DNA from: an alpha proteobacterium HIMB114
GTDB lineage: Bacteria; Pseudomonadota; Alphaproteobacteria; Pelagibacterales; Pelagibacteraceae
DNA: 64,000 nucleotides
Direction: 5' to 3'
Assembly: GCA_000163555.2 (NCBI GenBank)
Contig: ADAC02000001.1
Span: forward strand, 186,001 to 250,000
In this document: one piece after another, positions 19,024-41,693 of the stretch
How the letters are laid out: each line of letters begins with the position of its first letter
Position numbering within the stretch: position 1 is the stretch's first letter
Made by a program: the position numbers and the translations under genes
Notes under the pieces: model-generated
Told to the model about the DNA's origin: nothing
What the model saw: only the letters and a program-made list of their open reading frames with translations
Database searches by the model: none

Positions 19024-20082
19024 ATGTTAAACAAATTAATCGCTACATTAGTTGCTTCTGTCATGATGATCTCTTCTGCTTTTGCAGTTGATTATTCAGG
19101 CAAAACAGTAACAATGTGGATTCCATTCAAAGCTGGTGGTGGATCTGATACTTGGGCAAGAGCTTTAGCTCCAATCTTAAGTAAAAGTTTACCTGGCAAT
19201 CCGTCAGTTGTAGTTAAAAACGTAACTGAAGGAAAAGCAATCGGTGCTTCAAATAAATATTTTGCTGAACACGGTAAAGATAAAGACGGTGTTGTAGTAT
19301 TTGGTACTTCAGGATCGGTGCAATTACCTTTTATCTTCAAAGATAAAAGAGTTAGATACAGATACAAAGATATGTATCCGGTATTTGCAAGTGGTACTGG
19401 TGGAGTTGTTTACGTAAGAAGCGACTCTGGTGTTAAAGATATCATAAAAGATTTTAATAAAATAAAATCTTCTAAGTTGGTATATGGATCTCAAGGTAAA
19501 ACATCTTTAGATGCAGTTCCAATTTTAGCATTTGATATGTTAGGCATGAATACGAAAGTTGTTTACGGAATGAAAGGTAGAAAAGGTGGAAGAGCTGCTA
19601 TCCTTAGAGGCGAAACAACAATCGATTATCAAACGACTGCTTCATATTTAAAACACGTAAAACCACTTGTTGGAAAAGGTGAAATGGTACCTTTAATGAC
19701 TTGGGGTGCTTTAAAAAATGGAAAAGTAGTTAGAGATCCTAATTTTCCAAATTTACCTTCTTTCCCAGAAGTATACGAGAAAGTTACTGGTAAAAAATTT
19801 AAAGGCACAGAAGCTAAAGCTTGGACTGCAATGTTTACAGCAGGATTTGCAACACAAAAATATATTATGTTGCCAAAATCTGCAAAAGGTAGTGTAAAAA
19901 AAGCTTGGACTAAAGCGGCAGCGAATATTGTTAATGACCCTTCAGCAATGAAAGTGATTAACAAAAAGCTTGGAAAATATGACCAAGTTACTGGAAAAGC
20001 ATTGAAGCCAGCTCTTAAAAAAGCAACTTCAATCGACTCTGCTTCAAACAAGTTTTTACAAGCTTGGAAAGCTAAGAAGTAA
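19024..20082 (+). CDS. Tripartite tricarboxylate transporter-like binding protein
   Basis: This 352-residue periplasmic protein has a signal peptide ending near residue 21 (SSAFAVDYS). The early VTMWIPFKAGGGSDTWARALAPIL segment and the later DYQTTASYLKHVKPL region fit TctC-type (Bug) binding proteins, although the sequence is divergent. It is the ligand-capture component for the TctA-TctB fusion encoded downstream. A strong GGGG-type ribosome site precedes it, and a stable hairpin follows it. The ligand is probably a di- or tricarboxylate. Confidence 0.82.
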   Translation: MLNKLIATLVASVMMISSAFAVDYSGKTVTMWIPFKAGGGSDTWARALAPILSKSLPGNPSVVVKNVTEGKAIGASNKYFAEHGKDKDGVVVFGTSGSVQLPFIFKDKRVRYRYKDMYPVFASGTGGVVYVRSDSGVKDIIKDFNKIKSSKLVYGSQGKTSLDAVPILAFDMLGMNTKVVYGMKGRKGGRAAILRGETTIDYQTTASYLKHVKPLVGKGEMVPLMTWGALKNGKVVRDPNFPNLPSFPEVYEKVTGKKFKGTEAKAWTAMFTAGFATQKYIMLPKSAKGSVKKAWTKAAANIVNDPSAMKVINKKLGKYDQVTGKALKPALKKATSIDSASNKFLQAWKAKK

Positions 20083-20092
20083 TTTCTAAATA

Positions 20093-20120
20093 TTAGAGGG
20101 GCAATTATTTGCCCCTCTAA
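20093..20120 (+). terminator. Strong hairpin after the transporter binding-protein gene
   Basis: A perfect 12-bp stem (TTAGAGGGGCAA at 20093-20104, loop TTAT, TTGCCCCTCTAA at 20109-20120) lies ten bases past the stop and five bases before the next ATG. There is no run of T after it, so it may stabilise the upstream mRNA or hinder translation of the next gene rather than terminate fully. Confidence 0.75.
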
Positions 20121-32584: not shown

Positions 32585-33594
32585 TAAATTAATTTCAAAT
32601 AAATAGTCGTAGAAATAATTAATATCACACTAATACAAAATCCAACTAAGAAAGGTTTAAAACCAAATCCTTTTAAATCATTAATGGAAATACTAGATCC
32701 AAGTCCAAATAATGCAAATAATATCAAATATTTAGAAACCGTTGAAACAAAACTAACTATTTTTTCCCAATTAGATAACATTGAGACTTCAATTGTTGCA
32801 TCAACTATACTTCTTAAGGCTGCCAAAAGTATAAAAAAAATAATAAAGGGCGGAAGTAGATTAAAAAATTTTATTTTATTTTTTTGCTCTTGAGATGAAT
32901 AATAAAACGCCAGTAAAGGTATCAAAATAATTAAAAAAGAGTTTCTTAGCAATTTAGTTGATATTGTTGAATTAAAAGATTGAGCATCACCATAAATATT
33001 TTGAAAAATAGTGCCTGCAGCTGTTACTTGAGATGTATCATGAATTGTTGCACCAAGCAGTATGCCTGCTTTGATTTGTTCTTGTTCAAAAATCAGATTT
33101 GCAAAAAATGGAGAAGAAAATACAGACAAAGTACCAATTAGAGTAATCACAGCAACTGCGCATGTAATATCTTTTTTTTTATTATTCATGACCGAGCTTG
33201 CTGCCATAATAGCTGTAATACCGCATACTGCAGAACCAATTCCTAATAAATTTATCATTCCTTTATTTGAATTAAGAAATGAGTTTAAAACTTTAATCAA
33301 AATAAAAATTAAAATAAAATTTAAAACGATAATAAAAAAAGAAATACTTGCGTAATTATAAAACTCAAAAAAACTGATTTTAATTCCAATTAAAGCAACT
33401 CCAATTTTTAAAAAATTTTTGGTTAAAATATTATTAATATTCTCAAAATTACTTATTTGAAAATGATTTATCAAAAGCCCCACAAGGATGCATATAATTG
33501 CAGATGATATTTCAATTGAATTATTAGATAATAATACAGATATATACTCGGCTATCGCTACAATAAAAGTAGCAATTAAAAAATTTTTTTTCAT
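32584..33594 (-). CDS. YeiH/UPF0324-family membrane protein
   Basis: This 336-residue, ten-segment membrane protein is of the YeiH family (COG2855, often called putative sulfate exporter). Marks are LLNLGIGSAVCGITAIMAASSVM-type and GATIHDTSQVTAAGTIF segments. It overlaps the upstream MmgE/PrpD gene (ATGA) and the downstream TSUP gene by one base, so it is firmly part of this operon. It presumably exports an anionic end product. Confidence 0.85.
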   Translation of the reverse strand: MKKNFLIATFIVAIAEYISVLLSNNSIEISSAIICILVGLLINHFQISNFENINNILTKNFLKIGVALIGIKISFFEFYNYASISFFIIVLNFILIFILIKVLNSFLNSNKGMINLLGIGSAVCGITAIMAASSVMNNKKKDITCAVAVITLIGTLSVFSSPFFANLIFEQEQIKAGILLGATIHDTSQVTAAGTIFQNIYGDAQSFNSTISTKLLRNSFLIILIPLLAFYYSSQEQKNKIKFFNLLPPFIIFFILLAALRSIVDATIEVSMLSNWEKIVSFVSTVSKYLILFALFGLGSSISINDLKGFGFKPFLVGFCISVILIISTTIYLKLI

Positions 33595-34940
33595 GAAATA
33601 TTTAAGTTTGAAAGCTCAACAAGTTCTTTAATCGTAAAGTCCTTATTTAAAATACAATCAATTAGATCATCAGTTTTAGAATTATTAAATACTTTAAATA
33701 ATCTTTGAGATTTTGCAGTGATATCATTTTTATCCATTGGATTATCTGGTGTACCTCTGACTGAACTTGCATGATAAAAAAGCTTTTTATCATCATTTAG
33801 TATTATTGTTAATTTTGATTGTCTTTCAGGTCTAGCTTTAGCCAGTTCATCACTTGATACTGATTTAATTTTTTTTCTTAATGCTACTACATCTGGATCA
33901 TTAAAAAGATTTTCATCATGAGCCTCTTCGTATCCCATAGTCTTTTTAATTAAATGTACAGCAATTAAATGTTGTGCACTTATTGAGGGAATTTCTCTGT
34001 CATTTACAATATGAAAACGATCTGATGGTATTTCAATTGTAAGCTCTTTTATATCTTTATGATCAAAATCATTATTTTTTAGAAGATGTTCAACTGCATC
34101 CATCATAGATTGAATAGGAGATCCTACTGACCATTTTTTTAAAGATGAATGATCAATCTCAAATTTTTTTCCAAGTTCACTTATTATTAAATCAGGTTTA
34201 GGATTATGAGCAAAACCTTCATGAAAGCCTCTTTCTCCTAGAAGTGGATCAGTAACAGATGTAAAGTTTTCTTTTGCAAGAAGCGCTGAATAAATTGCAT
34301 TTCTTGTTGTCATTCCAGAAAATACAAATGCCTTTTCAATATGATCAGGATCTCTATTCCAACAAGCTAAACCCGAAGCTTGTTGTATCGTATAGGATAA
34401 TAAATAATTACATTGTTGGTGGTTTAATTTTAACAATGCACCAGCTGAAGCTGCACACCCAAAAATTGGACCTAAACTATGTGTTGCAAAGATTGTTGTT
34501 TTTGGAGTTTCATAACCTAAGCTTGTGGTAATTCTAACGCCAATATCATATCCAAGTGCGATTGCTTTTAAAATTTCTTTAGAACTTAAATTTTCTCTTT
34601 CAGCAATTGCTAATGTTGCGGGAACAATTGCACATCCAGGATGAAATCTGCCATTTGTATGAGAGTCATCAGTTTCGTTTGCGTGCGCTGCCATTCCATT
34701 TGCAAATCCTGCATGAATTGCAGACACTTTAATATCATTACCTAATAGTGTTGCTTCTTTAGGACCGCCTTGATTTTTAGAAAATTCAAAACCTTTTTTA
34801 CCCGGAGGCAAAAGTCTTCCTGTTAGAATAGCAACCATGGTATCTAACAGATGAAACCTTGTATTTAATTCAGTCTCTTTCGGTAATTCGTGTGATAATG
34901 CTTCAGATATATATTTTGTGAGCGTTTGTTGAATGTCCAT
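33591..34940 (-). CDS. MmgE/PrpD-family protein 2
   Basis: This 449-residue member of the family shows the active-site AHANETDDSHTNGRFHPG region, followed by ATHSLGPIFGCAASAGALLKL. It ends without the longer C-terminal insert of true PrpD. The start overlaps the preceding PrpD stop (TAATG). It probably acts on a carboxylate as dehydratase, epimerase or decarboxylase; the specific reaction cannot be assigned from sequence alone. Confidence 0.87.
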   Translation of the reverse strand: MDIQQTLTKYISEALSHELPKETELNTRFHLLDTMVAILTGRLLPPGKKGFEFSKNQGGPKEATLLGNDIKVSAIHAGFANGMAAHANETDDSHTNGRFHPGCAIVPATLAIAERENLSSKEILKAIALGYDIGVRITTSLGYETPKTTIFATHSLGPIFGCAASAGALLKLNHQQCNYLLSYTIQQASGLACWNRDPDHIEKAFVFSGMTTRNAIYSALLAKENFTSVTDPLLGERGFHEGFAHNPKPDLIISELGKKFEIDHSSLKKWSVGSPIQSMMDAVEHLLKNNDFDHKDIKELTIEIPSDRFHIVNDREIPSISAQHLIAVHLIKKTMGYEEAHDENLFNDPDVVALRKKIKSVSSDELAKARPERQSKLTIILNDDKKLFYHASSVRGTPDNPMDKNDITAKSQRLFKVFNNSKTDDLIDCILNKDFTIKELVELSNLNIS

Positions 34941-36451
34941 TAAAAAATTCCTTTAATATTATTTTTATCAAAATTAATTTTATTTTCATCACACATTACA
35001 TTAAGTTTTTTTACATCATCAGAAGAAAGATTTTTTAAATTATTTATTAAATCTAAAAATCTTTTTTGTTCTTTTTCATTTACCATGTTTTCAAACAAAG
35101 GTTCCATTTTTTTAATATATTCTGGTCTTTCAAATGGGGTTTTGCCACTTGGATGTGCATTTGCGAATTCTAAACTATCAATAATTTTTTCACCATTGTT
35201 TAAAATAATTTCGACTTTTGCACCTTGAGCTTTTTTTAAAGGATCTGGTTCATCATAATACTTTTTATTCCATTCAGGGCTTTCAAAAGTTTCAATTTTA
35301 TTCCAAAGTTCTACAGTTTCTTTTCTGTTTTTTCTTTCTTCGCTGTAACTTTTTTCATGGTGCCATTCTCCATCCTCTAATGCTACGGCAAATATATACA
35401 TAGCTGAATGGTCTAATGTTTCACGTGTTGCTTTAGGGCTATATTTTTCCTTATCATTACTTCCACTACCCATTACAATATGGGTATATTGTTTACTATG
35501 AATATTAATTTTACTAATCTCTTTGGTATCTTTAATTTTTTTTCTCATATTAAATGCAATATCGATTAAAGAGTTACCATGATATCCGGCTGAATGTTCT
35601 TTAGTAAATGTTCCTAAAATTCCTTTTCTAGGTTCATCTCCAACAGGTAACTCAATATCTAAATCATCATTATTTTTTTTTAATAATATTGGAATGATTC
35701 CGTAATCTCCTTCCCATACTGGACTAGGTGAGGTGTCACCGCGAATTGCTCTATCGATAGCATCGATTGCATTTTTACCAACTAGTCCTGGCGCATAAGC
35801 TTTCCAGCTTGAAAACTCACCTTTTCTTCCCTGTCTTGTAAAAATTGATGTATGTGCGCTCCATTGAATTGCTTGATAAATAGTATCAGCGTCTAACTTT
35901 AAAAGTTTACCTATCCCACTAGTGATTGCTGGACCCAAGTGACCAACATGATCAATTCTGTTTGGGTTAAGTGCAATTGACATGGATAATCTTAATTGCG
36001 TTTCGTAACTTGTAGATATTGCTTTTACCAAATCGTCACCGTTACAATTTTGTTGTTGAGCTACAGCTAAAATTGTTGGGATACAATCTCCAGGATGACA
36101 AGTTTCTTTAGCCATAATATTATCATGGAAATCTAATTCTCTAACTGCAACTGCATTAGCCCAAGCAGCCCACTGACAATCATATTTTTTATTATCCTCA
36201 AGGCCAAAGAGGGTTGCACCATTCTTATTTTCAAATTGCATTGCTTGCGCTCTTGCAATTTTAACCGCTTCTCTGTTTAAAGCTGCCACCGCAACACCTG
36301 CATTATCTATAATTCTATTACCTACCATTTCAGTAATTTCATTGGTTAAATTCCATTCTTCAGATGACATTACTGCGATGCGATATGCTAATTGATTTTC
36401 TTTTTTTAATTTATCGCCAGGTTTTTGAATTTTAATGTTAAAATTTTTCAT
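34940..36451 (-). CDS. PrpD-like 2-methylcitrate dehydratase homologue
   Basis: This 503-residue protein is the closest of the four MmgE/PrpD genes to genuine PrpD in length and pattern. It has NRIIDNAGVAVAALNREAV, the active-site REFHDN-like segment (AVRELDFHDNIMAKETCHPGDCIPTI), SAGYHGNSLIDIAF and KTPFERPEYIKK near the end. PrpD dehydrates 2-methylcitrate without a cofactor. It heads the leftward operon, 13 bases from IclR-like site 4, and is divergent from the second tctC. A methylcitrate-type or related tricarboxylate is likely. Confidence 0.87.
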   Translation of the reverse strand: MKNFNIKIQKPGDKLKKENQLAYRIAVMSSEEWNLTNEITEMVGNRIIDNAGVAVAALNREAVKIARAQAMQFENKNGATLFGLEDNKKYDCQWAAWANAVAVRELDFHDNIMAKETCHPGDCIPTILAVAQQQNCNGDDLVKAISTSYETQLRLSMSIALNPNRIDHVGHLGPAITSGIGKLLKLDADTIYQAIQWSAHTSIFTRQGRKGEFSSWKAYAPGLVGKNAIDAIDRAIRGDTSPSPVWEGDYGIIPILLKKNNDDLDIELPVGDEPRKGILGTFTKEHSAGYHGNSLIDIAFNMRKKIKDTKEISKINIHSKQYTHIVMGSGSNDKEKYSPKATRETLDHSAMYIFAVALEDGEWHHEKSYSEERKNRKETVELWNKIETFESPEWNKKYYDEPDPLKKAQGAKVEIILNNGEKIIDSLEFANAHPSGKTPFERPEYIKKMEPLFENMVNEKEQKRFLDLINNLKNLSSDDVKKLNVMCDENKINFDKNNIKGIF

Positions 36452-36463
36452 ATTTTGTTTTTT

Positions 36464-36480
36464 GTTTCATAATGTGAAAC
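36464..36480. promoter_or_regulatory. Putative IclR operator, site 4
   Basis: GTTTCATAATGTGAAAC is the most symmetric copy of the island palindrome (GTTTCA, 5-base centre, TGAAAC). It lies between the prpD-like gene and the second tctC gene, and so could control both the leftward enzyme operon and the rightward transporter operon. Confidence 0.7.
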
Positions 36481-36529
36481 TATGTTTTGCATCTTGATAT
36501 CTTATAGACTTGTGTTACGTTTATGTAAA

Positions 36530-36545
36530 TTAATTGATCAATTAA
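36530..36545. promoter_or_regulatory. 16-bp perfect palindrome before tctC
   Basis: TTAATTGATCAATTAA lies between IclR-like site 4 and the strong ribosome site (AAGGGGG, 36551-36557) of the tctC gene. It may be an operator or a 5' mRNA hairpin. In AT-rich DNA such palindromes also arise by chance. Confidence 0.35.
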
Positions 36546-36561
36546 ACACAAAGGGGGATAA

Positions 36562-37560
36562 ATGTTCAATTTAAAATTAAAAAAGCTTTTTGGCTTTTTC
36601 AGTTTATTCGCTCTGATTTTTACATCACTAACTGGTCAGTCTTTTGCAAAGAAGCACCCAACTTATGCTCAGAAAGTTTGTAATGGACAAATTCAAGTTG
36701 TGATACACGCATCATACGGTGGTGGTACTGATACTACTGCAAGAATGATGTCAATCAGAACAAGAAGAACTTTAAACACAGATATCCAAATCGTAGGTAA
36801 AAGAGGTGGATCTGGAGCAAAAGCACAGAACTACACTTTAACAAGACCTAAAGATGGATGTACAGTTATGGCTTTAACTGAGTCTCACTTGTACACAATG
36901 GCTAGAGGTAAATCTAATATGAAGATTAATGATCTAGTTGGTGTTGCAAGAGCTATGGAAGAGCCAACATTTGTTGTTGTTAACGCTAAAAATAAAGAGC
37001 TTAGCACAGTAAAAAAAATGCAGAAAAGAGCACAGAAGAAACCAATTAGCGTTGCAATCGCATCAATTGGTGGAACAGAGCACATTGGTATGTACACATA
37101 CTCAAAGGCTGCAAACATTCCATTTAAAGCAGTTTCATTTGGATCAGGAGCACAAAGTTTACAAGCTTTAGCATCTGGTAAAGTTGAAGCTTCTTTATTA
37201 AACCCTTCTGAAGCAGCTGCATTAATTGCTGACAAAAAGATTAAAGCAATCGTTTTATTGCACGATAAATCTTTAGCTGATTACCCTAAAGTGAAAACTT
37301 CGTACTCTATGGGTCACAAAGTAAAAGTTGTGACTACAAGAGGATATGCGGTGCTTAAAGGTACACCACAATCTACGATCGATGAGATCTCAAAAGGTAT
37401 GGTGAAAGCTATGAAGCATGAAACGTTTGGTAACTACCTTAAAGGTGCATCTCTAGACCCTGCTACTAGCCCAGCTGGTACAGAAGTTTGGGATAAGCAG
37501 CTAAAAGAAAATTATAAAAAAGCTGCTGCTGCATTAAAAGGTTTAGGTTTAACTAAATAG
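36562..37560 (+). CDS. tctC: TctC-family periplasmic binding protein
   Basis: This 332-residue solute-binding protein belongs to the tripartite tricarboxylate transporter. It has a signal peptide to about residue 29 (GQSFAKK). Family features are IHASYGGGTDTTARMMS, QIVGKRGGSGAKAQNYTL, and the ligand-loop region IASIGGTEHIGMYTYSKAANIPFKAVSFGSGAQSLQALASGKVEASL. Two cysteines (about 39 and 98) could form a disulfide. It begins the tctC-tctB-tctA-SDR-mmgE-TSUP operon. The ligand is a carboxylate of unknown identity. Confidence 0.88.
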   Translation: MFNLKLKKLFGFFSLFALIFTSLTGQSFAKKHPTYAQKVCNGQIQVVIHASYGGGTDTTARMMSIRTRRTLNTDIQIVGKRGGSGAKAQNYTLTRPKDGCTVMALTESHLYTMARGKSNMKINDLVGVARAMEEPTFVVVNAKNKELSTVKKMQKRAQKKPISVAIASIGGTEHIGMYTYSKAANIPFKAVSFGSGAQSLQALASGKVEASLLNPSEAAALIADKKIKAIVLLHDKSLADYPKVKTSYSMGHKVKVVTTRGYAVLKGTPQSTIDEISKGMVKAMKHETFGNYLKGASLDPATSPAGTEVWDKQLKENYKKAAAALKGLGLTK

Positions 37561-37569
37561 TTAATATCT

Positions 37570-38094
37570 ATGTCTAACGAATCTAATTTTGCGCCTGATA
37601 AAACAGGCGCAAAATTATTCCACCGAAAAGATTTATATTTAGCTCTTGTGCTCGTCGCATTTGGAGCATTTGTATATTATGAAGCTGGAAAGTTTCCTCC
37701 AGCACCCTTAGTATTAGGAGACACTATTAACGCTGACGTATTTCCAAAAATATTAGTTATTATTTTACTTTTTCTTACTGCTATCATCCCATTTGAATTT
37801 AAAATGACTCCAGAAAAAGTTGCAAAGATTGATAAAGAACGTGATCAAAAAACTCTTCCAATTACTTGGATTACTATTTTTCTATTACTTACAATTGTTT
37901 TTTTAACAGATTTTCTTGGCGCAGTATTAACCATGTTTGTAATTTGTCTACTGTTACCTCTTGTTTGGGGTGAAAAAAATTATGTAGCTGTTGCAATTTA
38001 TGCACTTTTATTTCCAGCGTTTGTTTGGTTTTTATTTAATCAAATTCTAGGTTTATATTTTGCACCTGGTTTATTGGAGGTATTTTTTAAATAG
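37570..38094 (+). CDS. tctB: TctB small permease subunit
   Basis: This 174-residue membrane protein has about four hydrophobic segments (starting near residue 22) and fits the small TctB/DUF1468 subunit. It lies between TctC and TctA as usual. The first dozen codons contain a perfect 13-bp inverted repeat, an unusual place for such a structure. No better ATG exists downstream before the first membrane segment, so the start is kept. Confidence 0.83.
   Translation: MSNESNFAPDKTGAKLFHRKDLYLALVLVAFGAFVYYEAGKFPPAPLVLGDTINADVFPKILVIILLFLTAIIPFEFKMTPEKVAKIDKERDQKTLPITWITIFLLLTIVFLTDFLGAVLTMFVICLLLPLVWGEKNYVAVAIYALLFPAFVWFLFNQILGLYFAPGLLEVFFK
37585..37616 (+). terminator. 13-bp hairpin inside the start of tctB
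   Basis: AATTTTGCGCCTG (37585-37597) and CAGGCGCAAAATT (37604-37616) pair perfectly around a 6-base loop, 25 bases past the tctC stop and inside codons 6-16 of tctB. There is no long T-run after it. It is probably a 3' stabiliser of tctC mRNA or an attenuator that limits permease expression. Confidence 0.7.
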
Positions 38095-38096
38095 TT

Positions 38097-39575
38097 ATGG
38101 AAGATGTAATTAAAGGGTTTGGATTAATCTTAGAATTTAAAAACATTGCACTTATATTTGGTGGTGTTTTAATTGGAGTTTTAGTTGGCGCTCTACCAGG
38201 ATTAAGTTCGCCAATGGCAATTGCATTATTAATGCCATTTACAATAAGCCTTGATCCAGTGGCCTCTATTTCAATGATGGCTGCTCTATATTGCGCTGGT
38301 ACGTTCGGGGGTTCGATTACAGCGATATTAATTAATGCTCCAGGTGCGCCACCAGCAGTTGCGACTGCATTAGATGGATACCAGATGGCAAAAAATGGTG
38401 AGCCAGGAAGAGCACTGGGTTTAGCAGCAGTATCAAGTGTAATAGGTGGTATCATTGCAATTTTCATATTTTTAATGGCGACACCTTTGCTTGCAGAAAT
38501 TGCTTTAAAATTTGGTCCAGTTGAATATTTTGGTTTATCTGTTTTCGCATTATCAATGCTAGCGGCAATGAGCGGAAAGTCATCTATCAGGAACTTAATT
38601 GCTGGAACTCTTGGCGTTTTAATTTCTACAGTAGGAGTACACCTTGCAACTGGAGTTGAGAGATTTGATTTTGGAGTTCAAGAGTTAACTGAAGGAATAA
38701 AATTTGTACCAGTTTTAATTGGTTTATTTGCAATGTCAGAATTACTGAATCAATCAAGAACTTTAAATGCTGCGGTTGAAAGAATGAATGCAAAAGCTTT
38801 AAGACTGCCAACAATTGCAGAATTAAAAGCCTTAAAGGGAACAATTCTTAGATCTTCTGGTCTTGGAACTTTTATTGGAATTTTACCAGCTGAAGGTTCT
38901 ACAGTCGCCGCTATGATGGGTTATAATGAAGCAAAAAGATTTTCAAAAACCCCGGAAAAATTTGGTACAGGACATGCTGAAGGAATAGTCGGTCCAGAGG
39001 CAGCTAACAATGCAGCAGCTGGAGGAGCAATGGTTCCTACATTAGCATTAGGTATTCCAGGTAGTGGAACAACTGCACTTATTTTAGCCGCGTTAGTAAT
39101 GCACGGGTTTAGACCAGGTCCATATTTAATTACTGAAACACCGCACCTGGTTCACGCAATATTTGGAGCTATGTTATTTGCTAACATTGGTTTTTTAGGA
39201 ATTGGATTAGTAGGAGCAAGGTTTTTCTCTTATGTCACGTTCATCCCTAAAAGATTTTTATGGCCATCAGTCTTTGTATTTTCTTTAATTGGTTCTTATG
39301 CTTATAGTTCAGCGTTTTTTGATGTTTGGGTTATGTTAATTTCAGGTATCATTGGCTACTTTGCGTTAAGAAATGGTTTTTCACCAGCACCATTTGTGAT
39401 GGGACTTATTCTTGGTAAAATGGTTGAAGAAACATTCACTCAATCCATGGTTATTTACGATAGTAATTTCATGTCATTCTTTGATAGTGGTGTCTTTATC
39501 TTGTTTATGGTTTTAACTGTTATAAGTCTTTCAACACCTTTCTGGGGTACGATAAGAAAAAAGTTAAAATCTTAA
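38097..39575 (+). CDS. tctA: TctA large permease subunit
   Basis: This 492-residue permease has about twelve membrane segments. The two repeat motifs GVLVGALPGLSSPMAIALLMPF and GIPGSGTTALILAALVMHGFRPGP, with the INAPGAPPAVATALDGYQMAKNGEPGRALG loop, are hallmarks of TctA. It starts two bases after tctB. It imports the ligand delivered by the TctC protein. Confidence 0.92.
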   Translation: MEDVIKGFGLILEFKNIALIFGGVLIGVLVGALPGLSSPMAIALLMPFTISLDPVASISMMAALYCAGTFGGSITAILINAPGAPPAVATALDGYQMAKNGEPGRALGLAAVSSVIGGIIAIFIFLMATPLLAEIALKFGPVEYFGLSVFALSMLAAMSGKSSIRNLIAGTLGVLISTVGVHLATGVERFDFGVQELTEGIKFVPVLIGLFAMSELLNQSRTLNAAVERMNAKALRLPTIAELKALKGTILRSSGLGTFIGILPAEGSTVAAMMGYNEAKRFSKTPEKFGTGHAEGIVGPEAANNAAAGGAMVPTLALGIPGSGTTALILAALVMHGFRPGPYLITETPHLVHAIFGAMLFANIGFLGIGLVGARFFSYVTFIPKRFLWPSVFVFSLIGSYAYSSAFFDVWVMLISGIIGYFALRNGFSPAPFVMGLILGKMVEETFTQSMVIYDSNFMSFFDSGVFILFMVLTVISLSTPFWGTIRKKLKS

Positions 39576-39579
39576 AAAG

Positions 39580-40344
39580 TTGAGCAACAATTTTTCAAAG
39601 AATAAAGTAGTTGTAATTACAGGTGGGGCAAAAAAAATTGGCCGTGCTACTGCTAAAAAATTAGCTGATCAAGGCTTTAATATTCTTATTCATACAGGCG
39701 GCAAAAGTATTGATGAAGCAAAAAAAACAGTAGATATTGTTAAGGAATATGGAGTTCAATCTGATTTTATTGATGGAGATTTGGCAGATATTAAAACAAT
39801 TGATAAAATTAAAAGTGCTGCAGAAAAGCTGGGTACTCCTTCAGTTTTAATTAATAACGCAGGTTTAAGAATTCATGATGATTTTGAGAAAATCACCTAT
39901 GAAGATTGGAAGAGAGTAATGACTGTAAATGTGGATGCATCATTTCTTTGTACGCAGGCATTGATAGGTCATATGACTAAACAAAAATGGGGAAGAGTAA
40001 TTAATATTGGTGGCTTGTCAGCACATATTGGAGCAAAAGAAAGAGCGCATGTTGTAACCTCAAAAGCTGCATTAATTGGCTTAACAAAAGCTATAAGTAT
40101 GGAGTTTTTAGAAAGGGGCGTGACATGTAACTGCGTTGTACCTGGTTTTATAGAAGATTTTGACAGCAAAGAAAAAGCTCTTAAAGGTCATTGGTTAAGA
40201 CATCCTCAGACACCAAATCTTGTTCTTAATAGATTTGGTAATCCTGACGAAGTTGCAGAGGTGATTGCCAATTTGTGTAAAAAGGAAGCGGATTATATTA
40301 ATGGCCAAACATTACATGTGAATGGTGGTAGCTTTACCCCATGA
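39580..40344 (+). CDS. SDR-family protein lacking the usual catalytic Tyr
   Basis: This 254-residue protein has the short-chain dehydrogenase fold. TGGAKKIGRATA is the cofactor loop at 14-25, NNAG is at 92-95, and a C-terminal PDEVAEVIANLC and NGQTLHVNGG complete it. The YxxxK active-site pair is replaced: Lys162 is present, but the position four residues before it is Val158 (AHVVTSKAAL). The upstream Ser region (GGLSAHIG) is kept. The start is TTG at 39580, five bases after tctA. It may be a reductase with an altered mechanism or a non-redox enzyme. Confidence 0.85.
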   Translation: MSNNFSKNKVVVITGGAKKIGRATAKKLADQGFNILIHTGGKSIDEAKKTVDIVKEYGVQSDFIDGDLADIKTIDKIKSAAEKLGTPSVLINNAGLRIHDDFEKITYEDWKRVMTVNVDASFLCTQALIGHMTKQKWGRVINIGGLSAHIGAKERAHVVTSKAALIGLTKAISMEFLERGVTCNCVVPGFIEDFDSKEKALKGHWLRHPQTPNLVLNRFGNPDEVAEVIANLCKKEADYINGQTLHVNGGSFTP

Positions 40345-41693
40345 CAATTGCTGAAGAGTTTTCAAGTTGGGCAAAATCCCTTTCGACAAAAGATATTTCA
40401 GATAAATCAAGACAAACTTTAGAGTTTCTATTTAAAGATATTTGTGGAGTAATTGTTTCGGCAAGAAATGAAAATTATGTTCAAAGTTTAGTAAAAACAT
40501 ATAAAGGAACAGGTTCTCTAATCTCTCTTGGCCACGGAAAAAATTTTGATATGTCTTCAGCCGCGATAATTACCGGCACTGCTGCACACGGAGAAGATTT
40601 TGACGATACATTTGAAGGTAATCCAATGCACGTTGGAGCATCCATGATACCAGCGATGTTGTCTGCAGCACAAAAATTTAATTTATCTGGAGATCAAATT
40701 TTAAAAGGGATGATTGTAGGTTCTGAACTAATTTGCAGATTAGCATTAGTTGCTCCCACAGCAATGCACAAACAATGTTTTCACCCAACAGCTGTATGTG
40801 GAACCTTTGGAGTTGCAGCAGGTTTGTCATCAGTTCTTAATATGTCAGAAAAACAAATGTCATCCGCACTTGGAGTGGCTGGAAGTTTTACTTCTGGTAT
40901 TATTGAATACTTAGCTGAAGGATCATGGACTAAACGAGTGCACCCAGGCTGGTCTGCAAATTCAGGAATGAATGCAGCTTTAATAGCAAAGTCAGATTTT
41001 TATGGTCCAAGAACAGTATTTGAAGGTGAACATGGTTTCTTCAAAGCATTTGCATTAAGAGAAATTGAAAGAGATTATTCTCATTTAACTGACAAGTTAG
41101 GATCAAGATGGGAGACAGAAAATTTAGCATTTAAACCGTATGCTTGCGGAACTATGGCTCAACCATTTGTAGATTGCGCGGTAAAATTAAAAGAAAAAGT
41201 AAAAGATCCAAAAAAAATTAAATCAATTTTAGCAAAAGTTGGAGAAGGTACTGTTCATAGATTATGGGAGCCTTCAAAAGAAAAGAAAAATCCATCCACT
41301 CCATATTCGGCTAAATTCTCAGTTCCGTATTGCGTTGCTGTTGGTTTTTTAAGAGGCGATGCGGGTCTAAGTGAATTTAATGAACAAAGTATTAAAGACA
41401 AAGAGATCTTAGAATTAGCTGGCAAAGTTCAATATGAGATTGATCCAAATGACGAATACCCAAAAAATTATACTGGGACTTTGATTTGTGAAACTGATGA
41501 TGGAGTTTTTAAAGAACATCAACCTTGTTTTAGAGGTGGTCGAAAACAACCTGTTACTAAAGAAGATATTGAGAAAAAATATCAAGCGAATTTAAAATTT
41601 TCTAAAATAGGCGATAAAGAGATAAAAAATTTAAATTCTTTTGTTGATACAATTTTTGAAAAACCAGATTTTACAAAAATTATTATTCAATAA
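40341..41693 (+). CDS. MmgE/PrpD-family protein 3
   Basis: This 450-residue protein carries the family's active-site stretch (TAAHGEDFDDTFEGNPMHVGASMIPAM), HPTAVCGTFGVAAGLSSVL, TKRVHPGWSANSGMNAALIA and KPYACGTMAQP. The Glu-Asp-Phe-Asp-Asp version is like protein 1 and unlike the PrpD-like copy. It overlaps the SDR gene (ATGA) and lies in the second tricarboxylate transporter operon, so the imported acid is its probable substrate. Confidence 0.87.
   Translation: MTIAEEFSSWAKSLSTKDISDKSRQTLEFLFKDICGVIVSARNENYVQSLVKTYKGTGSLISLGHGKNFDMSSAAIITGTAAHGEDFDDTFEGNPMHVGASMIPAMLSAAQKFNLSGDQILKGMIVGSELICRLALVAPTAMHKQCFHPTAVCGTFGVAAGLSSVLNMSEKQMSSALGVAGSFTSGIIEYLAEGSWTKRVHPGWSANSGMNAALIAKSDFYGPRTVFEGEHGFFKAFALREIERDYSHLTDKLGSRWETENLAFKPYACGTMAQPFVDCAVKLKEKVKDPKKIKSILAKVGEGTVHRLWEPSKEKKNPSTPYSAKFSVPYCVAVGFLRGDAGLSEFNEQSIKDKEILELAGKVQYEIDPNDEYPKNYTGTLICETDDGVFKEHQPCFRGGRKQPVTKEDIEKKYQANLKFSKIGDKEIKNLNSFVDTIFEKPDFTKIIIQ

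Follow-up and report, generated by a model that had tools for sequence, protein, structure and literature searches.

The structure that lies between malE and malF, a hairpin placed after a binding-protein gene and before the genes of the membrane subunits, is a REP. Its protective, intergenic character is described in the work on differentially decaying operons of E. coli (Dar and Sorek 2018, PMC5927463), where, of the 34 segments with a stabilised 5′ gene, 26 have their end directly past a stable hairpin that lacks a U-tract, where 17 of those 26 hairpins lie inside the next open reading frame (ORF), and where the stabilised gene is that of the substrate-binding subunit in five ABC operons. 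The kind of element treated here, i.e., the 3′-protective hairpin, including its in-ORF variety, is thus already known from E. coli. For SAR11 itself, the accessible text of a 2009 study of candidate structured RNAs in Cand. Pelagibacter ubique (PMC2704228) reports cis RNA structures found by comparison, among them the rhtB element (a hairpin, about half of the time with poly-U); the candidates given in that text come from intergenic regions, and none is placed after a binding-protein gene or inside tctB, unlike the hairpin that is the subject of this report. A literature search, with most subscription papers outside its reach, turned up no account of a post-binding-protein hairpin in SAR11 or in tctB.

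The locus is a tctC-tctB-tctA operon (36562-39575) encoding a tripartite tricarboxylate transporter (TTT) in a Pelagibacteraceae (SAR11) genome of 1.237 Mb; positions refer to the window, which is the whole 64-kb stretch of DNA analysed, unless marked as genome positions. Its features are as follows:

36562 to 37560, plus strand: tctC, periplasmic binding protein of the TTT transporter (ORF; Pfam PF03401, E 8.7e-15), presumed to be the gene protected by the hairpin
37570 to 38094, plus strand: tctB, small membrane subunit (ORF; Pfam PF07331 over residues 24-163)
37584 to 37617, plus strand: hairpin over tctB codons 5-16, 14-bp stem with loop ATAAAA (sequence, fold, covariation, orthologues)
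37584 to 37597, plus strand: 5′ arm, TAATTTTGCGCCTG (sequence, orthologues)
37604 to 37617, plus strand: 3′ arm, CAGGCGCAAAATTA (sequence, orthologues)
38097 to 39575, plus strand: tctA, large membrane subunit, the downstream part of the operon (Pfam PF01970, E 9.3e-147)

The ATG of tctB (37570) lies 9 nt past the tctC stop, beyond which the hairpin begins after 23 nt; residues 1-23 of TctB precede the Pfam domain match, and no obvious Shine-Dalgarno sequence was seen by eye in the tctB start region. The operon is flanked (33591-41693) by three MmgE/PrpD-family genes and a short-chain dehydrogenase gene, hinting at a substrate pathway shared with the transporter.

The initial annotation had described a 13-bp perfect hairpin at 37585-37616, spanning tctB codons 6-16; the perfect stem inside the first codons of tctB is there as described, and an extra T-A pair (37584/37617) lengthens it to 14 bp, so that its exact extent is from the third base of codon 5 to codon 16. 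There is no U-tract directly 3′ of the stem, where the next bases are TTCCACCG (TTCCACC), and the element hence lacks that mark of an intrinsic terminator. Neither does it belong to a dispersed, REP-like repeat as far as exact copies are concerned, since the 1.237-Mb genome has the exact arms at this one place, and Rfam membership was rejected, there being no match to any family at gathering score within the 64-kb window. The hairpin is beyond chance: a 400-kb sample of the genome contains no other perfect stem that is 14 bp or longer and has six or more G+C in each arm, and stems of even 12 bp or more with at least six G+C were absent from all 40 order-2 Markov simulations of 400 kb. The region 37540-37660 folds at -31.5 kcal/mol (z = -4.36, with none of 200 shuffles as low), and the first 66 nt of tctB rank 4th in fold among the 399 ORF starts of the 400-kb sample, whose gene calls are greedy longest ORFs made with no gene finder. 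The strongest such fold (-23.1) belongs to a hairpin starting an rsmH/mraW-like gene after an ftsZ-like gene (named by eye) at genome position 154904 (L027). When the N-terminus was recoded at random with synonymous codons, as many as 213 of 4000 versions folded as well as the native one, the residues A-P...G-A favouring such a stem, which makes this sequence on its own only moderately telling; the decisive evidence is the comparison across relatives.

An orthologous tctB (E <= 1e-20) was found in 12 of 297 family genomes and in five of the eight genomes of the genus, the present one included in both counts; in a search of 297 genomes drawn from the order, all matches listed belong to Pelagibacteraceae. 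All 12 carry an uninterrupted stem of 13-15 bp made of standard pairs, with its start 14-24 nt downstream of the tctB ATG and 21-44 nt past the stop of tctC, and in all 12 the lowest-energy 60-nt window of tctB covers it; loss of the stem in close relatives, which the initial annotation had named as a possible refutation of its reading, is thus seen in none. Ten of these orthologues (the two others share the arms of locus L009) gave 10 distinct sequences from four genera for the covariation alignment, in which the 13 alignable pairs are standard-paired in 130 of 130 cells, with double changes in eight of the 13. The covariation score is 0.609, against 0.356 +/- 0.040 in shuffles, none of 500 being as high, a figure that ignores relatedness and is not a probability; the stronger control is the slid register, where pairing falls to 51.5% or less once the partner is shifted by one, two or three columns. 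Departures from Watson-Crick pairing, scored strand-symmetrically over the same 10 sequences, number six for G.U and zero for A.C, which indicates that the structure is formed by the RNA of the coding (sense) strand. The sequences of the arms are strongly altered between genera, and the stretch of 12 nt after the closed stem has no more than three T's in a row in any of the 12 orthologues (five T's in a row, beginning within the 3′ arm, occur in three orthologues of the genus). By these comparisons, the hairpin is a real, conserved RNA structure.

Its placement in coding sequence also seems genuine. ATG-TC(T/A) is retained in each orthologue, the frame stays open and lengths differ by multiples of three, and an MS(N/D/K) start with an in-frame upstream ATG is present in all; as for the downstream start that the initial annotation considered capable of overturning its view, the alignment offers no start-like codon common to all from the stem to the first membrane segment. 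In contrast, the residues encoded by the stem vary (FAPDKTGAK, FASDKSGAR, FAPRTLGAG, PATNLVAGL), the N-terminal tail being among the most variable parts of TctB, and it is by compensating changes that the stem is maintained while they do so, as the alignment of tctB starts proposed in that annotation was expected to reveal. Within genus g1, the hairpin codons show 0.091 synonymous differences per codon versus 0.310 in the rest of tctB, and 0.273 amino-acid differences per codon versus 0.125 (for the 11 hairpin codons, 110 comparisons with 10 synonymous and 30 amino-acid differences; for the codons elsewhere, 1620 with 502 and 203; these comparisons are not independent of one another); within g5, the respective counts are three and none in 66 for the hairpin codons, and 86 and 15 in 984 for the rest. 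The earlier proposal of a dual-use stretch, whose encoded N-terminus is partly dictated by RNA structure, is supported by this comparison. Because the hairpin sits within tctB, the roughly 17-residue tail of TctB would largely be what the RNA allows, and the N-terminal residues should not be read as a protein signal alone.

Hairpins are found at other types of tctB, too. A second type (the copy in this genome is at genome positions 923594-924073) carries a stem of 10-17 bp, 12-22 nt inside the first ATG, in all 30 loci inspected (L044-L073) of the 39 matched; here, the hairpin is terminator-like, with a U-tract at the end of the stem or beyond it (read off the sequence by eye in the 30 loci), five different arm sequences are in use, and the reading frame through the stem differs (KKGG versus KRAN). 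In another type, where TctB is devoid of the roughly 17-residue tail (three of seven aligned), the hairpin is intergenic, at 11-12 nt from the tctC stop, and has no U-tract; this holds for seven of 30 loci (L166, L169, L170 and L176-L179), a count that omits three mis-anchored rows (L175, L181 and L187). Since the hairpin is within tctB in some operons and intergenic in others, it is the post-tctC hairpin that is constant and its coding status that changes. A further tctC-tctB junction of this genome, at genome position 296046 (own copy at genome 296055; L040-L043), shows in four of four genomes a stem that has a longer loop and involves the start region of tctB; the residues there are nearly invariant, and it says little about structure.

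Hairpins recur after genes of other binding proteins. When 255 same-strand junctions within the 400-kb sample were ranked by local hairpin energy, the six that follow binding-protein-like genes (taken from a list of 37 candidates passing a signal-peptide filter and read by eye, with the junction genes checked against Pfam, which confirms five of the six) ranked 1, 2, 3, 4, 6 and 19 (P = 2e-5; P = 4.6e-4 for the four left after removal of the tctC-tctB hairpin and of one protein without a Pfam match), the 296046 junction reaching only rank 19 with the 40-nt scan used. At rank 2, a strong hairpin with a U-run (2912-2951) separates a Peripla_BP_6 binding-protein gene (1667-2902) from the BPD_transp_2 permease gene (from 2957) that follows it in an ABC system; at rank 3, a 12-bp perfect hairpin without a U-run (20093-20120) lies before an alpha/beta hydrolase gene and after the gene for a 352-aa exported protein (19024-20082; genome 205024), which has no Pfam match and weak PDB matches to TctC-type proteins. 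Among relatives, a hairpin of at most -12 kcal/mol is seen at the DctP311-DctQ junction in 21 of 23 loci, all of them intergenic, and a U-tract is present in nine of those 21 and absent from 12; the DctP284-DctQ junction has a hairpin in 28 of 30 loci, with a U-tract in 26 of the 28. That the DctP311 hairpin is kept in nearly all loci but its U-tract in fewer than half points to selection keeping the hairpin and not the U-tract.

Strong hairpins were also seen after groEL-, HU-, glnA- and porin-like genes (named by eye; genome 70893, 254273, 344075 and 354374; L023, L032 and L037), which are other genes expected to be highly expressed. The hairpin at the atpE-to-atpF′ junction (rank 5 of 255; names by eye; L025:4879-5451) was not counted as a second in-ORF case: a stem of 7-10 bp occurs in 14 of 16 loci of nearer relatives (L074-L089) and, in that form, is missing from the other 14 of the 30 compared (L074-L103), which are more distant, and it falls in an alanine-rich, signal-peptide-like start whose composition favours a stem.

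The tctB hairpin shares with the protective hairpins of E. coli (PMC5927463) its boundary position after the 5′ gene, the binding subunit being encoded upstream, the missing U-tract, conservation in relatives and constraint at wobble sites. It differs from them in being found in SAR11 and in a TTT transporter, in lying 14-24 nt into the ORF, in its long perfect stem and in its strong cross-genus covariation. Like the malE-malF structure, it follows a binding-protein gene and precedes membrane subunits; unlike it, it is inside the next gene and unique in the genome. New in the present case are the strong cross-genus covariation of an in-ORF hairpin, the evidence for retention of the hairpin rather than of the U-tract, and the shift of the element in and out of coding sequence.

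The function that seems rather probable is that of a 3′-protective element, owing to which tctC mRNA would outlast tctBA mRNA and the binding protein would be made in excess. The hairpin of the tctCBA transcript would form the 3′ boundary of the tctC segment: an endonuclease would cut in tctBA, 3′-to-5′ exonucleases would digest the mRNA of the membrane subunits until halted by the hairpin just past the tctC stop, and a persisting tctC-only mRNA would yield an excess of TctC over TctB/TctA, with ribosomes elongating on tctB presumably melting the structure. Several things that such protection calls for are found here: a stable hairpin just after the favoured gene, without a U-tract and conserved with constraint at synonymous sites, and PNPase and RNase E/G genes in the genome (both above curated cut-off). 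A hairpin that starts 21-44 nt past the tctC stop and 14-24 nt past the tctB ATG need not get in the way of ribosomes terminating on tctC, and most orthologues have it at or outside what we take to be the edge of a ribosome initiating at the tctB ATG. Counting against protection is the distance into the ORF, as the protective in-ORF hairpins of E. coli lie on average 107 nt into it (PMC5927463), compared with 14-24 nt in tctB. Also unfavourable to it are the U-tracts of the DctP284 junction and of the second tctB type, the runs of five T's that begin in the 3′ arm of three genus orthologues, and the low rank of the 296046 junction.

The main rival is translational control of tctB, in which the hairpin would slow or gate initiation or early elongation, or hold a re-initiating ribosome, and thereby lower TctB/TctA. 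The hairpin starts 14-24 nt from the ATG, structures near start codons commonly reduce initiation, and a tctB that begins no more than 13 nt after the tctC stop in 10 of 12 orthologues (overlapping it in L008), as in coupled genes, and that has no obvious Shine-Dalgarno sequence would suit this account; the spacing to the ATG, however, varies (14, 15, 18 or 24 nt) and is at least 18 nt from its A in seven of the 12, and the hairpins after other binding-protein genes are intergenic, with no fixed distance to the start codon that follows, the constant thus being the binding-protein stop and not the next start, and we consider translational control unlikely, if worth keeping in mind. A partial transcription terminator or attenuator after tctC, either intrinsic or Rho-assisted, is a quite doubtful alternative. 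The strong GC-rich stem after a gene is what such elements between operon genes look like, and the sister junctions with U-tracts (the second tctB type and DctP284) speak for it, so that termination may be an ancestral or shared function; yet the tctB stem of every orthologue lacks a U-tract after it, for which reason an intrinsic terminator was rejected for this hairpin, and the DctP311 hairpin persists largely without one.

Two further explanations were weighed. A palindrome acting at the DNA level, such as an operator or another protein-binding inverted repeat, could be read into a 14-bp inverted repeat with a 6-nt spacer; it is highly improbable and was rejected, given arms that change strongly between genera, mismatches of the G.T but never of the A.C kind, which fits RNA, and an exact motif that is unique in the genome. 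The notion that the stem is a by-product of the protein, with conserved A-P...G-A residues happening to be encoded by complementary codons, draws on the recodings of the present sequence; in nine other sequences, however, only 0-117 of 4000 recodings fold as well, residues differ between genera while pairing stays complete, synonymous change over the hairpin is depleted and amino-acid change raised within the genus, and the frame through the stem shifts in the second tctB type. Coding coincidence, rejected in view of such cross-genus covariation and residue change under full pairing, therefore has a next to negligible chance of being correct.

What makes the hairpin of some interest is that it covaries strongly and that it recurs in the transport operons of SAR11. 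It is tentatively conceivable, at somewhat less than even confidence, that a "binding protein - hairpin - membrane subunit" punctuation is common to these operons and sets the binding-protein excess needed for oligotrophic uptake, with the hairpin as the conserved unit and the U-tract and coding status coming and going; in TTT operons, the tctB start might then have moved upstream of the hairpin (or the reverse), leaving the TctB tail as an RNA element that is translated yet has hardly any function in its own right. In models of marine oligotrophs, as one such study states for ABC transport (PMC8168909), uptake owes its affinity to binding proteins being more numerous than the transport units. 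If the proposed punctuation is true, a conserved post-binding-protein hairpin would provide very small genomes with a simple encoded means of setting that ratio from one promoter.
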